Position numbers and translations under genes: made by a program
In this document: positions 34,189-44,218 of the stretch, piece by piece
Layout of the letters: every line of letters begins with the position of its first letter
Position numbering within the stretch: position 1 is the stretch's first letter
Notes under the pieces: model-generated
The model's database searches: none
The model's input: only the letters and a program-made list of their open reading frames with translations
Told to the model about the DNA's origin: nothing
Assembly: GCF_017353515.1 (NCBI RefSeq)
Contig: NZ_JAFMPY010000020.1
Span: forward strand, 1-64,000
Reading direction: 5' to 3'
DNA length: 64,000 bases
DNA from: Jiella sonneratiae
GTDB lineage: Bacteria > Pseudomonadota > Alphaproteobacteria > Rhizobiales > Rhizobiaceae

Positions 34189-35037
34189 CTATTTTTGAGG
34201 GCGCGGCGCACCGCCCGCCGGTGCGCCGCGGGAGGCGAGGTCGCTGCGGATCGCTTCCCTCTCGTCTGGTTCTGCGAGGCCGATCGTCACCGGGCCCGCG
34301 ACGTCCTGAGGGCTCGGCTCGACGGCGCCGCGGCTCTCCAGCCAGGTCGCGAGCAGCCACCACATCAGCGCCCAGGCGGCGCCCGCCGTCCAGCCGGCGA
34401 GGACGTCGGAAGGCCAGTGGACGCCGAGATAGACCCGGCTGATGCCGACGATCACCGTGAGGAAAACCGCGAGGCCGAGCAGGAAGGCCCGCACCCGCCG
34501 CCGCGGCTCGACGCGGGCGAGGAGAATCGCCAGCGTCAGATAGGTGACGGCGGACATCATCGAATGGCCGCTCGGAAAGCTCGCCGTGTAGACGTAATCG
34601 CCATGCGGGACGAGGTCGGGACGCGGCCTGTCGAAGCTGCGCTTGAGGACCTGGCCGACCAGGAAGCCGCCGGCGATCGCCGCGACGGTCATCACCATCG
34701 AGCGGTGCTTGCCGGAGATCAGAAGATAGATCGCGACGAAGGTGGTGATCATGATCAGGATGCCGGTGCCGCCGAGGGCGGTCACGTCGCGGCCGAATTC
34801 TTCCAGCCAGCGCGGACCGACCGGATCGGAAGGGTCGGTCGAGGAGCGCAGCGCCAGAAGGATCGTCCGGTCGAGCCCCTTGGTGTCGCCCTCGACGACC
34901 TCGCCGGCGAGCGCGACGAAGGCCCAGATCGCCCCGGCGGCGAGCAGCGCGCCGATCAGCGTCCAGAGTTCCACCTTCGACCAGAGCCGGAGCGAAAGCT
35001 GGCGAATCCAATGCGCGGTCCTGCCGGTGTCGATCAT
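34189..35037 (-). CDS. PAP2-family membrane phosphatase
   Basis: 282 residues, six membrane segments. The three phosphatase motifs are in order: KRSFDRPRP (motif 1), SFPSGHSM (motif 2, His) and SRVYLGVHWPSDVLAG (motif 3, His). It dephosphorylates a lipid phosphate on the periplasmic face; undecaprenyl diphosphate or phosphatidic acid are common substrates. Soluble tail of about 45 residues at the C-terminus. Monocistronic. Confidence 0.9.
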   Translation of the reverse strand: MIDTGRTAHWIRQLSLRLWSKVELWTLIGALLAAGAIWAFVALAGEVVEGDTKGLDRTILLALRSSTDPSDPVGPRWLEEFGRDVTALGGTGILIMITTFVAIYLLISGKHRSMVMTVAAIAGGFLVGQVLKRSFDRPRPDLVPHGDYVYTASFPSGHSMMSAVTYLTLAILLARVEPRRRVRAFLLGLAVFLTVIVGISRVYLGVHWPSDVLAGWTAGAAWALMWWLLATWLESRGAVEPSPQDVAGPVTIGLAEPDEREAIRSDLASRGAPAGGAPRPQK

Positions 35038-37448: not shown

Positions 37449-37523
37449 TGGCTCCCCGGGCCGGATTCGAACCAGCGACCTGTCGATTAACAGTCGAATG
37501 CTCTACCGCTGAGCTACCGGGGA
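37449..37523 (-). tRNA. tRNA-Asn (GTT)
   Basis: Cloverleaf on the minus strand: acceptor TCCCCGG pairs with CCGGGGA, D-arm GCTC...GAGC, anticodon loop CTGTTAA with anticodon GTT, T-arm with GGTTCGAATCC. CCA is encoded. Length 75 including CCA. Confidence 0.97.
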
Positions 37524-38080: not shown

Positions 38081-38311
38081 GGGCCGCGCCGGCGGCGGAC
38101 GGGTCCGACTGCCGGCAGCGGCGGCACGACTTCGCGCCGCCGAGGTCGATCGAATCGAGCGACGCGGATTCACCGTTCCTTTGCCACATCCGGCGATAGC
38201 GGCCGTTCGCACGCGCCGGATCCGCGATCCTCAACGCCCTCGAAACCGTCAGCGACGAGAATGGTCGCCACGACAGGGAGCCGAAACTCCCGGTTCCGAG
38301 GGAGAGGTTTC

Positions 38312-39748
38312 GTGGACGCTTGCGTTGGCCAGAAAGACCGTCCGATCTACGTCGATCTCGACGGCACCCTGATCAAGAGCGACATGCTGTGGGAGACGCT
38401 GTTCCTCACCGCCCGCCAGTCGCCCCTCCGCCTCGCGCAGCTTCCCGGCTGGTACCTTGCCGGCAAGGCACGGATGAAGGCGGAACTCGCCGCCGGGATC
38501 AACTTTGATCCGGCGCTGGTTCCCTATCGCGAGGACGTCCTTCGCCAGCTTCGCGCGGCCAAGGCGCAGGGCCGGCGCATCGTCCTCGCCACCGGCGCCA
38601 ACGAGCGGCTCGCCCATGCGATCGCCGACCATCTCGGTCTGTTCGACGAGGTGATGGCGTCCTGCGACGCGGTGAACCTCACCTCGGACCGCAAGCTGGA
38701 GCGGATCACCGCCAGCTGCGGGGAGGAGGGCTTCGACTATCTCGGCAATTCGCGTGACGACATCTGCCTGCTCGAGGCGGCGGCCGAGGCGACCGTCGTC
38801 GCGCCCGACCGCACGGCCCGCCGCTGGCAGCGGACGAGCGGCGCCGAGCTGATCGTCGCGGAGGGCAATCCGGTCCGGGCGGCGCTGAAGGCGATGCGGC
38901 CGCACCAGTGGGCGAAGAACGTCCTCGTCTTCGTTCCGACCGCGCTGACCCACGAGTTCTTCAACCTCGGCATGATCGTCGAGGCGATGATCGCGTTTCT
39001 CGCCTTCTCCTTCGCCGCGTCCTCGGTCTACATCCTCAACGACCTCGTCGACCTGACCGCCGACCGCAAGCACAAGACCAAGCGCAACCGGCCTTTCGCC
39101 AGCGGCACGCTGAAGATCCCGGACGGGCTCAAGCTCGCCGCCGGACTACTGGCGACGTCGCTGGTGCTCGGCCTCTTGCTGCCGCCGGCCTTCCTCGGGG
39201 TGCTCGCGGTCTATCTCGTCGCCACCACCGCCTATTCGATGGTGATCAAGCGGATGCTGCTGATCGACGTGCTGACGCTCGCCGGCCTCTACACCACCCG
39301 CATCATGGCGGGTGTCGCCGCGACGGACGTGTCGGTGTCGTTCTGGCTGCTGGCCTTCTCCTTGTTCTTCTTCCTCTCGCTCGCGCTGGTGAAGCGCTAC
39401 ACCGAGCTCATGGATTTCGGCTCCGGCGCCGAGCGGTCCAAGACCGGCCGCGGCTATGTCGACGCCGATCTGGAGACGCTCGCCCAGGCCGGCATGGCCT
39501 CGGGCTTCGCGGCGGTGATGGTGCTCGCGCTCTACATCAACAGCCCCGAGGTCCTGACGCATTACCAGGTGCCCTGGCTGGTCTGGCCGCTCTGTCCGAT
39601 CCTCCTCTACATCATCGTGCGGATCTGGGTGCTGGCGCGGCGCAACCAGATGCACGACGATCCGGTCGTCTTCATGCTGCAGGACTGGCGCAGCCAGATG
39701 ATGATCGGCATCGGTGGCGTGATGTTCCTCCTGGCCGCCTATGCGTGA
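38312..39748 (+). CDS. HAD phosphatase-UbiA prenyltransferase fusion (polyprenyl-phosphate phosphoribosyltransferase-like)
   Basis: 478 residues from GTG 38312, five bases after GGAGAG. Residues about 10-190 form a HAD domain (YVDLDGTLIKSD, VLATGANERLA, YLGNSRDDICLLEAA). Residues about 200-478 form a UbiA membrane domain with the Mg-binding motif NDLVDLTADRKHKTKRNRP. UbiA proteins next to DprE1-like oxidases resemble mycobacterial Rv3806c, which transfers 5-phosphoribose from PRPP to decaprenyl phosphate. The HAD part could remove the 5-phosphate, a step done by a separate enzyme in mycobacteria. It overlaps the next gene by eight bases. The 231 bases upstream show no other gene. Confidence 0.85.
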   Translation: MDACVGQKDRPIYVDLDGTLIKSDMLWETLFLTARQSPLRLAQLPGWYLAGKARMKAELAAGINFDPALVPYREDVLRQLRAAKAQGRRIVLATGANERLAHAIADHLGLFDEVMASCDAVNLTSDRKLERITASCGEEGFDYLGNSRDDICLLEAAAEATVVAPDRTARRWQRTSGAELIVAEGNPVRAALKAMRPHQWAKNVLVFVPTALTHEFFNLGMIVEAMIAFLAFSFAASSVYILNDLVDLTADRKHKTKRNRPFASGTLKIPDGLKLAAGLLATSLVLGLLLPPAFLGVLAVYLVATTAYSMVIKRMLLIDVLTLAGLYTTRIMAGVAATDVSVSFWLLAFSLFFFLSLALVKRYTELMDFGSGAERSKTGRGYVDADLETLAQAGMASGFAAVMVLALYINSPEVLTHYQVPWLVWPLCPILLYIIVRIWVLARRNQMHDDPVVFMLQDWRSQMMIGIGGVMFLLAAYA

Positions 39749-41165
39749 GAGTGCCGACCACGACAGCTGGGGCCGGCTGAACCGCCGGCCGCGTGCGGCA
39801 ATGCCGATGCGCGAGGCGATCCTCGATCCCGCACCGGCGACGGGCGAGGGCGGCTATCTGCCCTTCGGCAACGGCCGCTCCTACGGCGACTCCTGCCACA
39901 ACGACGCCGGCGTCCTCGTCGACGCGCGGATCGGGTTTTTGCCGCAGATTCACGCCTTCGACGTGGAGACGGGACTCCTCACCGCCGATGCGGGGGTGCT
40001 GTTCTCCGAGATCACCCGGCACGTCGCGCCGCATGGCTGGTTCCTGCCGGTCACCCCCGGCACACAGTTCGTCACGCTCGGCGGGGCGATCGCCAACGAC
40101 ATCCACGGCAAGAACCACCATCGTCGGGGAACGTTCGGCCGTTGGGTCGAGGCGATCGAGCTCGAACGCTCCGATCTCGGCCGCCTCACGCTGACGCCGG
40201 AGGAGAACGCGGAGCTGTTCGCCGCCACCATCTCCGGCATGGGGCTGACCGGCCTCATCCGCCGCGCCACCGTGCGGCTGATGCGGGTGCCGTCGCTGTC
40301 GATCGTCGAGACGACGACCCGCTTCGACCGGCTCGCCGACTATTTCGACCTCGCCGCCGAAGCCGACGCGGCGCACGAATACGCCGTCGCCTGGATCGAC
40401 TCGCTCGCCGGCGGCAGCAGCCTCGGGCGCGGACACCTGATCTGCGGCGACCACGCCGCGAAGGGCGATCATACCGGCGAGGCCTCGCCGCGGCTCGCCG
40501 GCGTTCCCTTCACCCCGCCGGTCAGTCCGCTCGCCGGCCCGCTGCTGAAGGCGTTCAACGAGGCCTACTACCGCAAGGCCCGGCCCGGCACGCGGCAGCG
40601 CACGGTGCCGTTTTCCGGCTTCTTCTACCCGCTCGACCGCATCGGCGACTGGAACCGCCTCTACGGTCCCCGCGGCCTGTTCCAGCACCAGAGCGTCGTC
40701 CCCCTCGCCGACGGCGAGGCGGTGGTGCGGGCGCTGATCGAATGCGCCAGGAGCCACGGTCACGGCTCATTCCTGACGGTGCTGAAGCGGTTCGGCGATC
40801 TGAAGAGCCCGGGCCTCACCAGTTTTCCGCGTCCCGGCTACACGCTGACGCTCGACTTTCCGCATCGCGGCGCGCGGACGCTGGCGCTTCTCGCCGAACT
40901 CGACCGGATCACCGTCGAGGCCGGCGGCGCCGTCAATCCCTACAAGGACGCGCGGATGTCGCCCGCGACCTTCGCGGCGGGCTTTCCGCACCACGCCGCG
41001 CTGGAGGCGCTGCGCGATCCCGCCGCCATGTCGGACTTCTGGCGGCGGACCGGAATGCGCCTCGGCGCGGCGCCGGCGGCAAACCCCGCCGATGCAGACA
41101 ATTCGAGCGATCCGGCGGACGCTTCCTTTACCATCGCCGGGACAATACTTGGCGCCCGCGCCTGA
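39741..41165 (+). CDS. DprE1-like FAD-dependent decaprenylphosphoryl-ribose oxidase
   Basis: 474 residues. FAD-binding PCMH domain with FGNGRSYGDSC, VTPGTQFVTLGGAIANDIHG and KNHHRRGTFG, all signatures of DprE1. C-terminal part has FSGFFYPLDRIGDWNRLYGP and HGSFLTVLKRFGD. By family it oxidises the 2'-hydroxyl of polyprenylphosphoryl ribose to a ketone. In mycobacteria DprE2 then reduces it to arabinose; no DprE2 homologue is in this cluster. Azorhizobium noeCHOP (Nod factor arabinosylation) is the known rhizobial relative of such genes. Confidence 0.88.
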   Translation: MRESADHDSWGRLNRRPRAAMPMREAILDPAPATGEGGYLPFGNGRSYGDSCHNDAGVLVDARIGFLPQIHAFDVETGLLTADAGVLFSEITRHVAPHGWFLPVTPGTQFVTLGGAIANDIHGKNHHRRGTFGRWVEAIELERSDLGRLTLTPEENAELFAATISGMGLTGLIRRATVRLMRVPSLSIVETTTRFDRLADYFDLAAEADAAHEYAVAWIDSLAGGSSLGRGHLICGDHAAKGDHTGEASPRLAGVPFTPPVSPLAGPLLKAFNEAYYRKARPGTRQRTVPFSGFFYPLDRIGDWNRLYGPRGLFQHQSVVPLADGEAVVRALIECARSHGHGSFLTVLKRFGDLKSPGLTSFPRPGYTLTLDFPHRGARTLALLAELDRITVEAGGAVNPYKDARMSPATFAAGFPHHAALEALRDPAAMSDFWRRTGMRLGAAPAANPADADNSSDPADASFTIAGTILGARA

Positions 41166-41289
41166 GGGCGACGACCTTTAACCCATCACTGAACTTCAGG
41201 CCTTATGACGTTCGGTCATGGAGACGCCCCGCGCACGCGTCGCGCATGCCTCGCCAATGCCTTGATGGCTCGACGGAAAGATCCGGCCG

Positions 41290-41751
41290 ATGACGAAATA
41301 CATCCCCTTCATCCTCTTCACCGTCTTCACCAACGCCGCGGCGCAGGTGATGCTGAAATACGGCATGATGCAGCTCGGTCCGCTGACCTTCGCCGGCGTC
41401 AATCCGATCCTGAAGATCCTGCAGATCGTCTTCAGCCCCTGGGTGTTCCTCGGCCTCTGCACCTTCGTGATCTCGATGGCCTCGCACCTCTTCGTCCTGT
41501 CGAAGGTCGATCTCTCCTTCGCCTATCCGTTCCTGTCCCTCGCCTACGTCGCCGTGGCGGTCTTTGCGTATTTCGTCTTCCGCGAGGACGTCAACGCGAT
41601 GCGCATCCTCGGCATCGCCCTGATCTGCGGCGGCACCTTCTTCATCGCCCAGAGCGGCGGACCGTCGCGTGCCGAGAGCGTCGACCGGCAGGTGGCCGAC
41701 GCCGTCGCCAATCCCTCCCACATGCACAACGCGTCAGAGGTTTCGCAATGA
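41290..41751 (+). CDS. small EmrE/ArnE-like transporter
   Basis: 153 residues, four membrane segments (YIPFILFTVFTNAAAQVMLKYG; WVFLGLCTFVISMASHLFVLS; FAYPFLSLAYVAVAVFAYFVF; ILGIALICGGTFFIAQS). The QVMLKYG helix and LSFAYPFLSLAYV are as in ArnE/ArnF, which flip polyprenyl-phospho-aminoarabinose across the inner membrane. Given its neighbours it probably flips the lipid-linked pentose made by this cluster. Overlaps the epimerase start by ATGA. The 124 bases after the oxidase gene have no other gene. Confidence 0.82.
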   Translation: MTKYIPFILFTVFTNAAAQVMLKYGMMQLGPLTFAGVNPILKILQIVFSPWVFLGLCTFVISMASHLFVLSKVDLSFAYPFLSLAYVAVAVFAYFVFREDVNAMRILGIALICGGTFFIAQSGGPSRAESVDRQVADAVANPSHMHNASEVSQ

Positions 41752-42761
41752 AACACGTGATCTTCGGCGGCGACGGCTTCGTCGGCCGCCACCTCGCCCA
41801 GAAGCTCGTGGCCGAGGGCCAGGATGTCGTCGTCGCCGACATCGTCAGGAGCGACCTCAAGCATTACGGCCGGGCCCGCTTCGTCCATTGCGACGTCACC
41901 GACAAGGCCTCCGTCGCGGCGGTGGCGATCGCTCCCGAGGACATGGTCTACAACCTGTCGGCCAAGATGCTGTCGCCGATCCAGGTTCGGGCGAAGCGCC
42001 ACGACTTCTTCTACCCGGTGAACTATTTCGGCACCGAGAACATCATCGAGGCGATGGCCAGGGCCGGAGCGCCGAACCTCGTCCACTTCACCACCGACAT
42101 GATCTACGGCCACACCGTGGTCTATCCGATGACCGAGGACCATCCGGTCGCCCCGCTCGGCGAATACGGCCAGTCGAAGCTCGACACCGAGATCCTCGCC
42201 GCCAAATGGCGCGAGAAGGGCATGAACATCTCCTTGTTCAGGCCGCGCCTGATCATCGGACCTGGGCGCCTCGGCATCCTGGAAAAGCTGTTCAAGCTGA
42301 TCGACCACAACCTGCCGGTCCCGATGATCGGCTCGGGCCGCAATCCCTACCAGTTCATCTCGGTGTTCGACTGCGCCGAGGCGGCGCGGCTCGCCTGGAA
42401 GGCGGGCGTGCCCAACGAGGCCTACAATCTCGGCTCGCTGAACCCGCCGCCGGTCAGGAAGCTGCTCGGCGACCTGATCAAGCATGCCGGCTCGAAGTCG
42501 ATCCTCGTCCCGACGCCGGGATGGGCGGTGAAGAAGACGCTCGACCTCCTGGACCGTCTCAACATGCCGCTGATGGACCCGGAGCAGTATCTGATCGCCG
42601 ACGAGGAGTGCGTCCTCGACGTTTCCAAGGGCAAGCGGCAGCTCGGCTGGGTACCTCAGTACCGCGACGAGGACATGCTGATCGCCGCCTACAGCGAATA
42701 CCGCAACAAGCGCGCCGGCGCGGCCGGCCACGCCGCGCCCAGCGCGCAACCCGCCGAGTGA
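41748..42761 (+). CDS. NAD-dependent epimerase/dehydratase (extended SDR)
   Basis: 337 residues. Rossmann motif GGDGFVGRHLAQKL (an odd GGxGFxGxxL form), catalytic YxxxK in YGQSKLDTE, and Ser/Thr region HFTTDMIYG. C-terminal substrate domain includes FISVFDCAEAARLAW. It belongs with nucleotide-sugar or lipid-linked sugar epimerases; the substrate is not identifiable. In this cluster it could act where DprE2 would, as the reductase or epimerase of the keto-pentose. Starts within the transporter stop; 11 bases before the aminotransferase. Confidence 0.85.
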   Translation: MKHVIFGGDGFVGRHLAQKLVAEGQDVVVADIVRSDLKHYGRARFVHCDVTDKASVAAVAIAPEDMVYNLSAKMLSPIQVRAKRHDFFYPVNYFGTENIIEAMARAGAPNLVHFTTDMIYGHTVVYPMTEDHPVAPLGEYGQSKLDTEILAAKWREKGMNISLFRPRLIIGPGRLGILEKLFKLIDHNLPVPMIGSGRNPYQFISVFDCAEAARLAWKAGVPNEAYNLGSLNPPPVRKLLGDLIKHAGSKSILVPTPGWAVKKTLDLLDRLNMPLMDPEQYLIADEECVLDVSKGKRQLGWVPQYRDEDMLIAAYSEYRNKRAGAAGHAAPSAQPAE

Positions 42762-42772
42762 GGGAGTAGACG

Positions 42773-44218
42773 ATGCTCGACCGTCCCGTGACCACGCTCG
42801 ATGCCGCAGAACGCCGCGGCCCGGCAAAGCCGAACCTCCTCTCCGTGGAGGACGCCAAGGCGATGCCGGTCGAGACCATGGCCGACCTGTTCAAGAGCCA
42901 CATCAATCCCGGCCAGTTCCACTTCATGAAGCTGCTCGGCTTCCACAAGGTGAAGATCGAGCGCGCCGAGGGGATGTTCTACACCGACCAGAACGGCCGC
43001 AAGATCCTCGACTTCTTCGGCGGCTTCGGCTCGCTCGCCCACGGCCACAACCACCCGCGGGTCCTCGCGGCGCGCGAGCGCTTCCAGGAGGAGAAGCGCC
43101 ACGAGATCGCGATCGCCTTCCTGTCGCAATATGCCGCGGCGCTGGCGAAGAACATCGCCGCCTGCTCGCCGGGCGAGCTCGACATGGTGTTTCTCGGCTC
43201 GACCGGGTCGGAAGCGATGGAAGCGGCGATCAAGGTCGCCGAACGGGCATCGGGCCGCAAGAATTGCAAGGTCGTCCATGCCGAGAACTCCTTCCACGGC
43301 AAGTCGAAGGGCGTTCTGTCGATCACCGATTCGACGCTCTATCAGGGCGAGTTCAAGCTGGTCGACAACCGGGTGAAGGTGCCTTTCGGCGATCTCGAAG
43401 CCCTGAAGCGGGCGGTGGAGAACGACAGGGACATCGGCGTCGTCGTGCTCGAGACGGTGCAGGGCGGCGGCGGCATCATCGGCGCGCCGACAGAATACTG
43501 GCAGGGGGTGAGGGCTCTCTGCGACCGGCACGGCGTCATCTGGGTCGCCGACGAGGTGCAGTGCGGCTACGGCCGGACCGGCAGGTTCTACGCCTTCGAG
43601 CATCACGGCGTGGTGCCGGACGTGACGGCGCTGGCGAAGTCGCTCGGCGCCGGCAAGGCAGCGGTCGGCGCGATGATCGCCCGGCGCGACGTCTACATGA
43701 AGGCCTATGGTTCGCCGAAGACGGCGATGATCCACGCCCAGGCGACCTTCGGCGGCATCGGCGAAGCCTGCGTGACGGCGATCGAGGGCCTCAACGTCCT
43801 CTACGACGAGGACCTGATCGGCAATTCGGCCGACACCGGCGCCTATCTGCTGGCCCGACTGAAGACCATCCAGGCGAAGTATCCGACGATCATCAAGGAG
43901 GTCCGCGGCCAGGGCCTGATGGTGGGGCTGGAGTTCCAGGACTTCTCCCGCACGCTGCCTTTGGCGCTGCGGCCGATGGTGGCGATGCTGGACGACAAGC
44001 TGAAGGGCTCGCTCTCCGGTTTCATCGGGGCGCTGCTGCTCAGGGATTACGACGTCCTCGTCGCGTTCACCGAGTACAACCGCAACGTCATCCGGCTCGA
44101 GCCGCCGCTGATCTGCGGCGAGGAGCATGTCGACCAGTTCTGCGACGCGCTGGACGACCTGCTCGGCCGCGGCATCGTGGCGATCGTCAAGGACTTCGTG
44201 AAGTCGCAGCTCGGCTAA
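42773..44218 (+). CDS. class III pyridoxal-phosphate aminotransferase
   Basis: 481 residues. Class III features in order: FFGGFGSLAHGHNHP, GSTGSEAMEAAIKVAERASGRKN, HAENSFHGKSKG, WVADEVQCGYGRTGRF, and the PLP Lys in TALAKSLGAGKAAVGAM. Long N-terminal extension (about 60 residues). Related class III enzymes include HpnO of hopanoid synthesis and enzymes acting on sugar aldehydes. It is the last gene of the pentose-lipid cluster, so it may aminate a keto or aldehyde sugar, or a hopanoid side chain; I cannot decide. GAGGGAGT precedes the start. Confidence 0.9.
   Translation: MLDRPVTTLDAAERRGPAKPNLLSVEDAKAMPVETMADLFKSHINPGQFHFMKLLGFHKVKIERAEGMFYTDQNGRKILDFFGGFGSLAHGHNHPRVLAARERFQEEKRHEIAIAFLSQYAAALAKNIAACSPGELDMVFLGSTGSEAMEAAIKVAERASGRKNCKVVHAENSFHGKSKGVLSITDSTLYQGEFKLVDNRVKVPFGDLEALKRAVENDRDIGVVVLETVQGGGGIIGAPTEYWQGVRALCDRHGVIWVADEVQCGYGRTGRFYAFEHHGVVPDVTALAKSLGAGKAAVGAMIARRDVYMKAYGSPKTAMIHAQATFGGIGEACVTAIEGLNVLYDEDLIGNSADTGAYLLARLKTIQAKYPTIIKEVRGQGLMVGLEFQDFSRTLPLALRPMVAMLDDKLKGSLSGFIGALLLRDYDVLVAFTEYNRNVIRLEPPLICGEEHVDQFCDALDDLLGRGIVAIVKDFVKSQLG

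Follow-up and report, generated by a model that had tools for sequence, protein, structure and literature searches.

What would a gene cluster make that places a HAD-UbiA fusion and a DprE1-like oxidase next to a class III aminotransferase? This question is raised by a 64,000-nucleotide stretch of Jiella sonneratiae DNA, hereafter the window (positions 1 to 64,000 of NZ_JAFMPY010000020.1, assembly GCF_017353515.1; contig C10 of the 5.15 Mb, 76-contig genome, G000), which contains the following five genes:

38261 (ATG) or 38312 (GTG) to 39748, + strand: HAD-UbiA fusion (Pfam HAD and UbiA, NF006088, structure match)
39741-41165 (alternative start 39801), + strand: DprE1-like flavin adenine dinucleotide (FAD) oxidase (NCBIfam DprE1, phmmer to structures)
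41290-41751, + strand: EamA/SMR-type transporter of 153 residues, ArnF-like, a predicted flippase (EamA PF00892, ArnF model)
41748-42761, + strand: extended short-chain dehydrogenase/reductase (SDR) of the NAD-dependent epimerase/dehydratase family (Epimerase PF01370, 120 bits)
42773-44218, + strand: class III pyridoxal phosphate-dependent aminotransferase (Aminotran_3 PF00202, 276 bits)

A preliminary description of this DNA had placed these five families on one strand, and all were confirmed there (+ strand, 38261-44218). The HAD-UbiA and DprE1-like genes overlap by 8 bases and the transporter and SDR genes by 4, with gaps of 124 bases between the DprE1-like and transporter genes and of 11 bases between the SDR and aminotransferase genes; a promoter scan detected no site. 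The comparisons below support the view that the five genes serve one pathway, and this is probably a pentofuranose donor pathway ending in an amino sugar. The transporter, SDR and aminotransferase are referred to collectively as the triad.

From its domain matches, the first product is predicted to be a HAD phosphatase fused to a UbiA-type polyprenyl-phosphate phosphoribosyltransferase. It scored 43 bits against HAD PF12710 (residues 32-171, above the cut-off), 75 bits against UbiA PF01040, 617 bits against NCBIfam NF006088 and 123-160 bits against three decaprenyl-phosphate phosphoribosyltransferase models (under their cut-offs), and aligned to 8j8j, a solved structure of decaprenyl-phosphate phosphoribosyltransferase (E=3e-28). 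It retains the motifs DLDGT (DxDGT), GNSRDD and the Asp-rich NDLVD (NDxxD), and had no phage match at E≤1e-15. The GTG at 38312, upstream of which GAGGGAGAGG stands, is more likely to be its start than the ATG at 38261. The oxidase reached 327 bits against NCBIfam DprE1, under the equivalog cut-off of 500, and its residues 13-417 aligned to mycobacterial DprE1 structures by phmmer (E=5e-66), with the DIHGKNHH and KD.R stretches paired. The transporter scored 32 bits against EamA PF00892 (cut-off 28) and 53 bits against the ArnF model (cut-off 99), and is 56-90% identical to six relatives. In the SDR, GGDGFVG (G7-G13), T115-T116, Y140 and K144 (YxxxK) are invariant in nine of nine aligned sequences. 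The nearest solved structures to the aminotransferase are 4ppm (PigE-type; E=2e-74) and putrescine aminotransferase (E=1e-66), and K289, D260, T325 and the C-terminal R441, taken to be those that serve catalysis and the cofactor in class III enzymes, are invariant in all 13 aligned sequences. The aminotransferase was also modelled with 13 sequences, but at a mean pLDDT (predicted local distance difference test) of 56.5 the model was set aside.

The co-occurrence of the five families, which the preliminary description had proposed to check by comparative genomics, was borne out. A named-genome scan was conducted with the SDR as the query, and the best 80 of 302 relatives' loci were used; the SDR was adjoined by the transporter and the aminotransferase in 80/80 (L110 and L112 stop within the aminotransferase), by UbiA in 75/80 and by DprE1 in 69/80. 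Carrier genera include Jiella, Aurantimonas, Aureimonas, Fulvimarina, Mesorhizobium, Aminobacter, Nitratireductor, Chelativorans and Hoeflea; judged by the SDR, Jiella strains (86-91% identical) and a Fulvimarina-named metagenome-assembled genome (90%) are the closest named relatives. In Aurantimonas manganoxydans SI85-9A1 (L085), all five genes adjoin one another. All five genes also occur on a Neorhizobium megaplasmid, the PLSDB record of which is without annotation there. The aminotransferase was found in 2 of 289 genomes of a class-wide sample (E≤1e-100; the window's own and G205, from another order), in 5 of 299 of a phylum-wide sample (E≤1e-90; the window's own and four from its family) and in 106 of the 199 genomes sampled from the window's family, roughly one in two (E≤1e-100), where DprE1 was found in 113/199 (E≤1e-40) and the UbiA enzyme in 116/199 (E≤1e-20). 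Every one of the 106 aminotransferase-positive family genomes also has DprE1 and the UbiA enzyme, compared with 7 and 10, respectively, of the 93 aminotransferase-negative ones. DprE1 lies within 5 kb of the aminotransferase in 95 of the 106 genomes and elsewhere in 11; among the latter, the separation is perhaps a mere contig break in G377 and G463, whereas in G334 a distance of 2.3 Mb separates UbiA-DprE1 from the triad. In G325, G330, G370, G376, G383, G390 and G462, DprE1 is 41-50% identical to that of the window.

Such an association could reflect common descent of a chromosomal neighbourhood with no shared pathway, and the aminotransferase genomes from the three samples do belong to one family, bar one. 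However, DprE1 has been kept even where it lies elsewhere (11/106, at least six of which have it from another lineage), the distribution is patchy within genus g296 (4 of 8 listed members positive), and a DprE1 tree revealed two independent unions; we therefore regard common descent as very improbable. The tree comprised 59 rows (14 named loci and the others), and its bootstrap had not fully settled. In G205 the gene order is transporter-SDR-UbiA-DprE1-aminotransferase, and the UbiA protein, because it has just 283 residues, probably lacks the HAD domain. Identity to the window's proteins is 64% for the G205 SDR and 67% for its aminotransferase but only 40% for its DprE1, and this oxidase grouped with 11 DprE2-type oxidases (100/100 support), apart from the Rhizobiaceae clade. 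The DprE1 sequences of G325, G330, G370, G376, G383 and G390 also fell outside the main triad-linked clade (G462 was not included). Well-supported branches force at least two partner changes; the triad has thus come together with two or more lineages of DprE1.

The partner of DprE1 was then compared between loci with and without the triad. As the preliminary description had stated, there is no DprE2 near the window cluster, and none came to light in the genome: an alphaproteobacterial DprE2 query gave no match in G000 at E≤1e-35, with 13 of 67 first-look candidates scored (the genome searches in this work score part of such candidates). Among 114 DprE1 loci, the triad was nearby in 71, DprE2 in 35, neither in 8 and both in none, such that DprE2 stands beside DprE1 in 0/71 triad-linked loci versus 35/43 others. 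Since this set is not random (69 loci were fetched with the SDR, 16 were hand-picked from family DprE1 matches, and the class-sample loci were limited to the 30 best matches, with about 1.5 kb of flank each; L017 and L032 (same place as L161) were excluded), the telling figure is the 0/71 with DprE2. Leaving aside the window's own locus and that of G205, 28 class-sample loci remain; DprE2 is near in 27, the short locus L023 has neither DprE2 nor the triad, and the aminotransferase was found in none of the genomes behind them. Within the window's family, the triad-free cassettes have the order UbiA, small gene, DprE1, DprE2. The DprE2 query matched 9 of 199 family genomes at E≤1e-35, always adjoining a DprE1; these are five of the seven DprE1 genomes without the aminotransferase and four of the 106 with it, and two of these four, G359 and G485, carry two cassettes each, the triad adjoining one and DprE2 the other. 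The triad thus usually occupies the place where DprE2 would stand. Together with the co-occurrence and the independent unions, this pattern ties the aminotransferase to the DprE1 pathway, as had been suggested. Other neighbours of DprE1 were also observed: in G330 it adjoins an aldo/keto reductase, a further possible DprE2 substitute, with no DprE2 (L157:5659-8246), and at L146:6015-8241 and L147:4823-7037 an alpha/beta hydrolase adjoins it with no DprE2, UbiA or triad nearby.

The same pattern could arise if the SDR replaced DprE2, or also epimerised C3, so that the lipid would carry plain arabinose, xylose or lyxose while the aminotransferase served an unrelated product. The lack of a DprE2 match in 102 of the 106 triad genomes is consistent with this, as is the SDR of Citrobacter O2, which changes the incorporated ribose to xylose (PMC11127046, 2024). 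Against it stand the constant company of the SDR and the aminotransferase in the named loci (80/80), the presence of DprE1 in every aminotransferase genome (106/106) and the G205 operon, which keeps the aminotransferase despite reshuffling. The preliminary description had offered plain arabinose, with the SDR acting as DprE2, as an alternative; it is weakened by these data, and we consider a plain pentofuranose unlikely. It had also suggested that the aminotransferase might be HpnO, of the same class, acting in aminobacteriohopanetriol synthesis. Besides the link of the aminotransferase to DprE1, a search of 40 of the 106 aminotransferase genomes, among them G000, detected neither HpnH nor squalene-hopene cyclase (0/40 for each); the control genomes gave one sub-cut-off match each, and no hopanoid producer served as positive control. 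With hopanoid genes in none of the 40, the HpnO alternative fails, and it was ruled out as extremely improbable.

Returning to the amino sugar pathway, the following sequence of reactions is proposed. The HAD-UbiA protein would make polyprenyl-phosphate ribose, a reaction already demonstrated for another fusion of these domains, and the DprE1-like oxidase would, by homology, turn this lipid-linked ribose into the 2'-keto sugar. Where DprE2 would reduce the ketone, the class III aminotransferase would instead transaminate the lipid-held sugar, and the SDR may epimerise a neighbouring hydroxyl, as in Citrobacter O2, or prepare a ketone. The ArnF/EmrE-like protein would then flip the polyprenyl-phosphate amino-pentofuranose, and a GT-C enzyme encoded elsewhere in the genome would add the amino-pentofuranose to a periplasmic or surface glycan. 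The preliminary description had likewise proposed that a keto or oxidised pentose may be aminated on the lipid and flipped; of this, the shared pathway and the failure to find DprE2 stand, whereas the amination, its carbon and the SDR step, like the flipping, are parts that we infer.

The aminated carbon is most likely 2', with 3' next and C5' possible. In its specific form, the proposal is that polyprenyl-phosphate 2-amino-2-deoxy-pentofuranose is made by transamination of the DprE1 keto product on the lipid, in place of the DprE2 step; we put this forward tentatively, as a structure that may be correct. Alternatively, the SDR could itself generate the carbonyl group that is aminated (a ketone or aldehyde, 3' or 5'), so that the product would be a 3- or 5-amino-pentose and DprE1 would set only the configuration at C2. 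The closest solved relatives of the aminotransferase, the PigE-type enzyme and putrescine aminotransferase, act on aldehydes. Inversion at C3 is the activity known for the SDR of such systems (PMC11127046). However, DprE1 already supplies a ketone at 2', the most immediate substrate, and most triad genomes gave no DprE2 match; this variant of the amino sugar pathway is rather unlikely.

Several observations weigh against an amino sugar made by a simple exchange of DprE2 for the triad. G390 and G462 carry the aminotransferase, yet the sole DprE1 found in each adjoins DprE2, and in G383 the sole DprE1 found adjoins a weaker DprE2-like neighbour; in these three genomes the keto sugar could be reduced first, and they speak against a strict swap. 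G333 and G426 have DprE1, no aminotransferase and no DprE2 match (E≤1e-35). The counts and exact tests leave out shared ancestry, for which only the tree accounts. We know of no chemistry for this SDR or this aminotransferase, and sugar-acting class III aminotransferases usually take primary-carbon aldehydes, not ring ketones. Finally, neither of the two GT-C candidates, the membrane-protein families C6 and C13, adjoins the window cluster, and C13 was not found in G000 (9 of 19 first-look candidates scored).

These two families track the triad, and neither has a Pfam or NCBIfam name. C13 is a GT-C glycosyltransferase by fold, as a second-look structural re-alignment, limited to the Foldseek-ranked entries, was clear; plain Foldseek gave no match at E≤0.001, the best GT-C rows having E values of 0.13-0.3. 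A PDB sequence search with C6 and C13 gave nothing at E≤1, and a profile comparison showed no relation between them. C13 is lacking in 59 positive genomes, in 24 of which C6 was tested. The window's genome does contain a C6-family gene, on another contig (C75:152966-154639), and this is a candidate for the GT-C counterpart of the cluster. The C6 gene in G000 adjoins a 529-residue protein (L169:6178-9742), a pairing also seen in two relatives. In G321 (L183:8545-12071), a C6-like membrane protein, strongly similar to C6 by profile comparison, occurs with a HAD-UbiA protein and a GtrA protein, with no oxidase or SDR called beside them; this minimal three-component set would make plain lipid-linked ribose. 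A HAD-UbiA protein, a 572-residue protein and an EamA/SMR protein stand in series in G372 (L162:5888-9418) with no oxidase adjoining, and the 572-residue protein showed no relation to C6 by profile comparison.

Other neighbouring genes were noted. Directly upstream of the cluster is a tRNA-Asn gene (window 37449-37523, - strand), and 3 kb upstream, on the strand opposite to the cluster, is a PAP2-family phosphatase (window 34189-35037), a relative of which lies near the triad in 6 of 86 loci (window counted); because it is near in only these six, it is probably unrelated to the triad. At L044:13679-15650, near the triad, a PIG-L-like deacetylase (below the Pfam cut-off) is paired with a GNAT-domain protein; the pair occurs in six loci (L044, L051, L073, L081, L107 and L165), with Pfam applied to L044 only.

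If the amino sugar pathway is correct, the bacteria behind 106 of the 199 sampled family genomes are predicted to form an amino sugar carried on a lipid and a glycan bearing amino-pentofuranose, the named carriers including Mesorhizobium, Aminobacter, Aurantimonas, Hoeflea and Neorhizobium strains. A single exchange of a reductase for an aminotransferase would divert the pentofuranose pathway based on phosphoribosyl pyrophosphate (PRPP) to nitrogen-bearing sugars, and the SDR, the aminotransferase and the membrane families C6 and C13 would acquire roles. Should the product be the 2-amino sugar, it would be an unreported class of activated sugar that places a positively charged furanose on surface glycans, and this would hold for much of the Rhizobiaceae sensu lato. 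The pathway was not found in print within limited literature searches, whose matches include work on Nod-factor arabinosylation and one paper that holds 'arabinosamine' once.

How does the cluster compare with known systems? The Arn pathway shares the idea of a lipid-linked amino-pentose and an ArnF-like transporter. In that pathway, a UDP-sugar is aminated by a DegT-type enzyme before transfer, whereas the window combines a class III enzyme with a furanose derived from PRPP; DegT-family ArnB is not in the cluster, whose aminotransferase is class III PF00202 (the search covered the cluster alone, not the rest of the genome). The mycobacterial Rv3806c/Rv3807c/DprE1/DprE2/Rv3789 pathway shares the UbiA phosphoribosyltransferase, the DprE1-type oxidase and a small transporter. 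In contrast, the window has an extended SDR and an aminotransferase, and of the DprE1/DprE2 pair only DprE1 was found (below the equivalog cut-off), with no adjoining classical-SDR DprE2. Its phosphatase is of the HAD family and fused to UbiA, whereas Rv3807c is not related to HAD (PMC11127046). The UbiA-DprE1-DprE2 cassettes of L149, L151, L152 and L163 have UbiA and DprE1 40-44% identical to those of the window, and differ in having DprE2, a small gene between UbiA and DprE1 (GtrA by Pfam in L149 and the similar L150) and no triad.

The closest likeness, one that the preliminary description did not mention, is to the three-component systems described in PMC11127046 and compared here by description, those of Citrobacter youngae O1/O2 (ORF12-15), which share the HAD-UbiA fusion, a GalE-aligned SDR and a flippase. 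There, polyprenyl-phosphate ribofuranose is made by a HAD-UbiA fusion, with farnesyl phosphate used as the acceptor, the choice of ribose or xylose depends on an SDR bearing GalE-type motifs, the sugar is added by a GT-C enzyme and a MATE protein is the predicted flippase; DprE1/E2 homologues are ascribed to arabinose, and some systems have several candidate epimerases or GT-Cs, the significance of which is stated there to be unknown. The word aminotransferase occurs 0 times in the main text. The window protein has both the UbiA domain with the Asp-rich motif and the fused HAD domain of ORF15-type synthases, and the gene beside it is EamA/ArnF-like, with flipping predicted from its family. The differences are that the window adds a DprE1-like oxidase and an aminotransferase, that its transporter is EamA/SMR where theirs is MATE, and that theirs includes a GT-C whereas the window cluster has none, a gap that the preliminary description did not note. 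The window system is therefore of the described pentofuranose kind with two changes, a DprE1 without DprE2 and an added aminotransferase; its first two genes resemble known machinery, and the transporter-SDR-aminotransferase triad is the new element.

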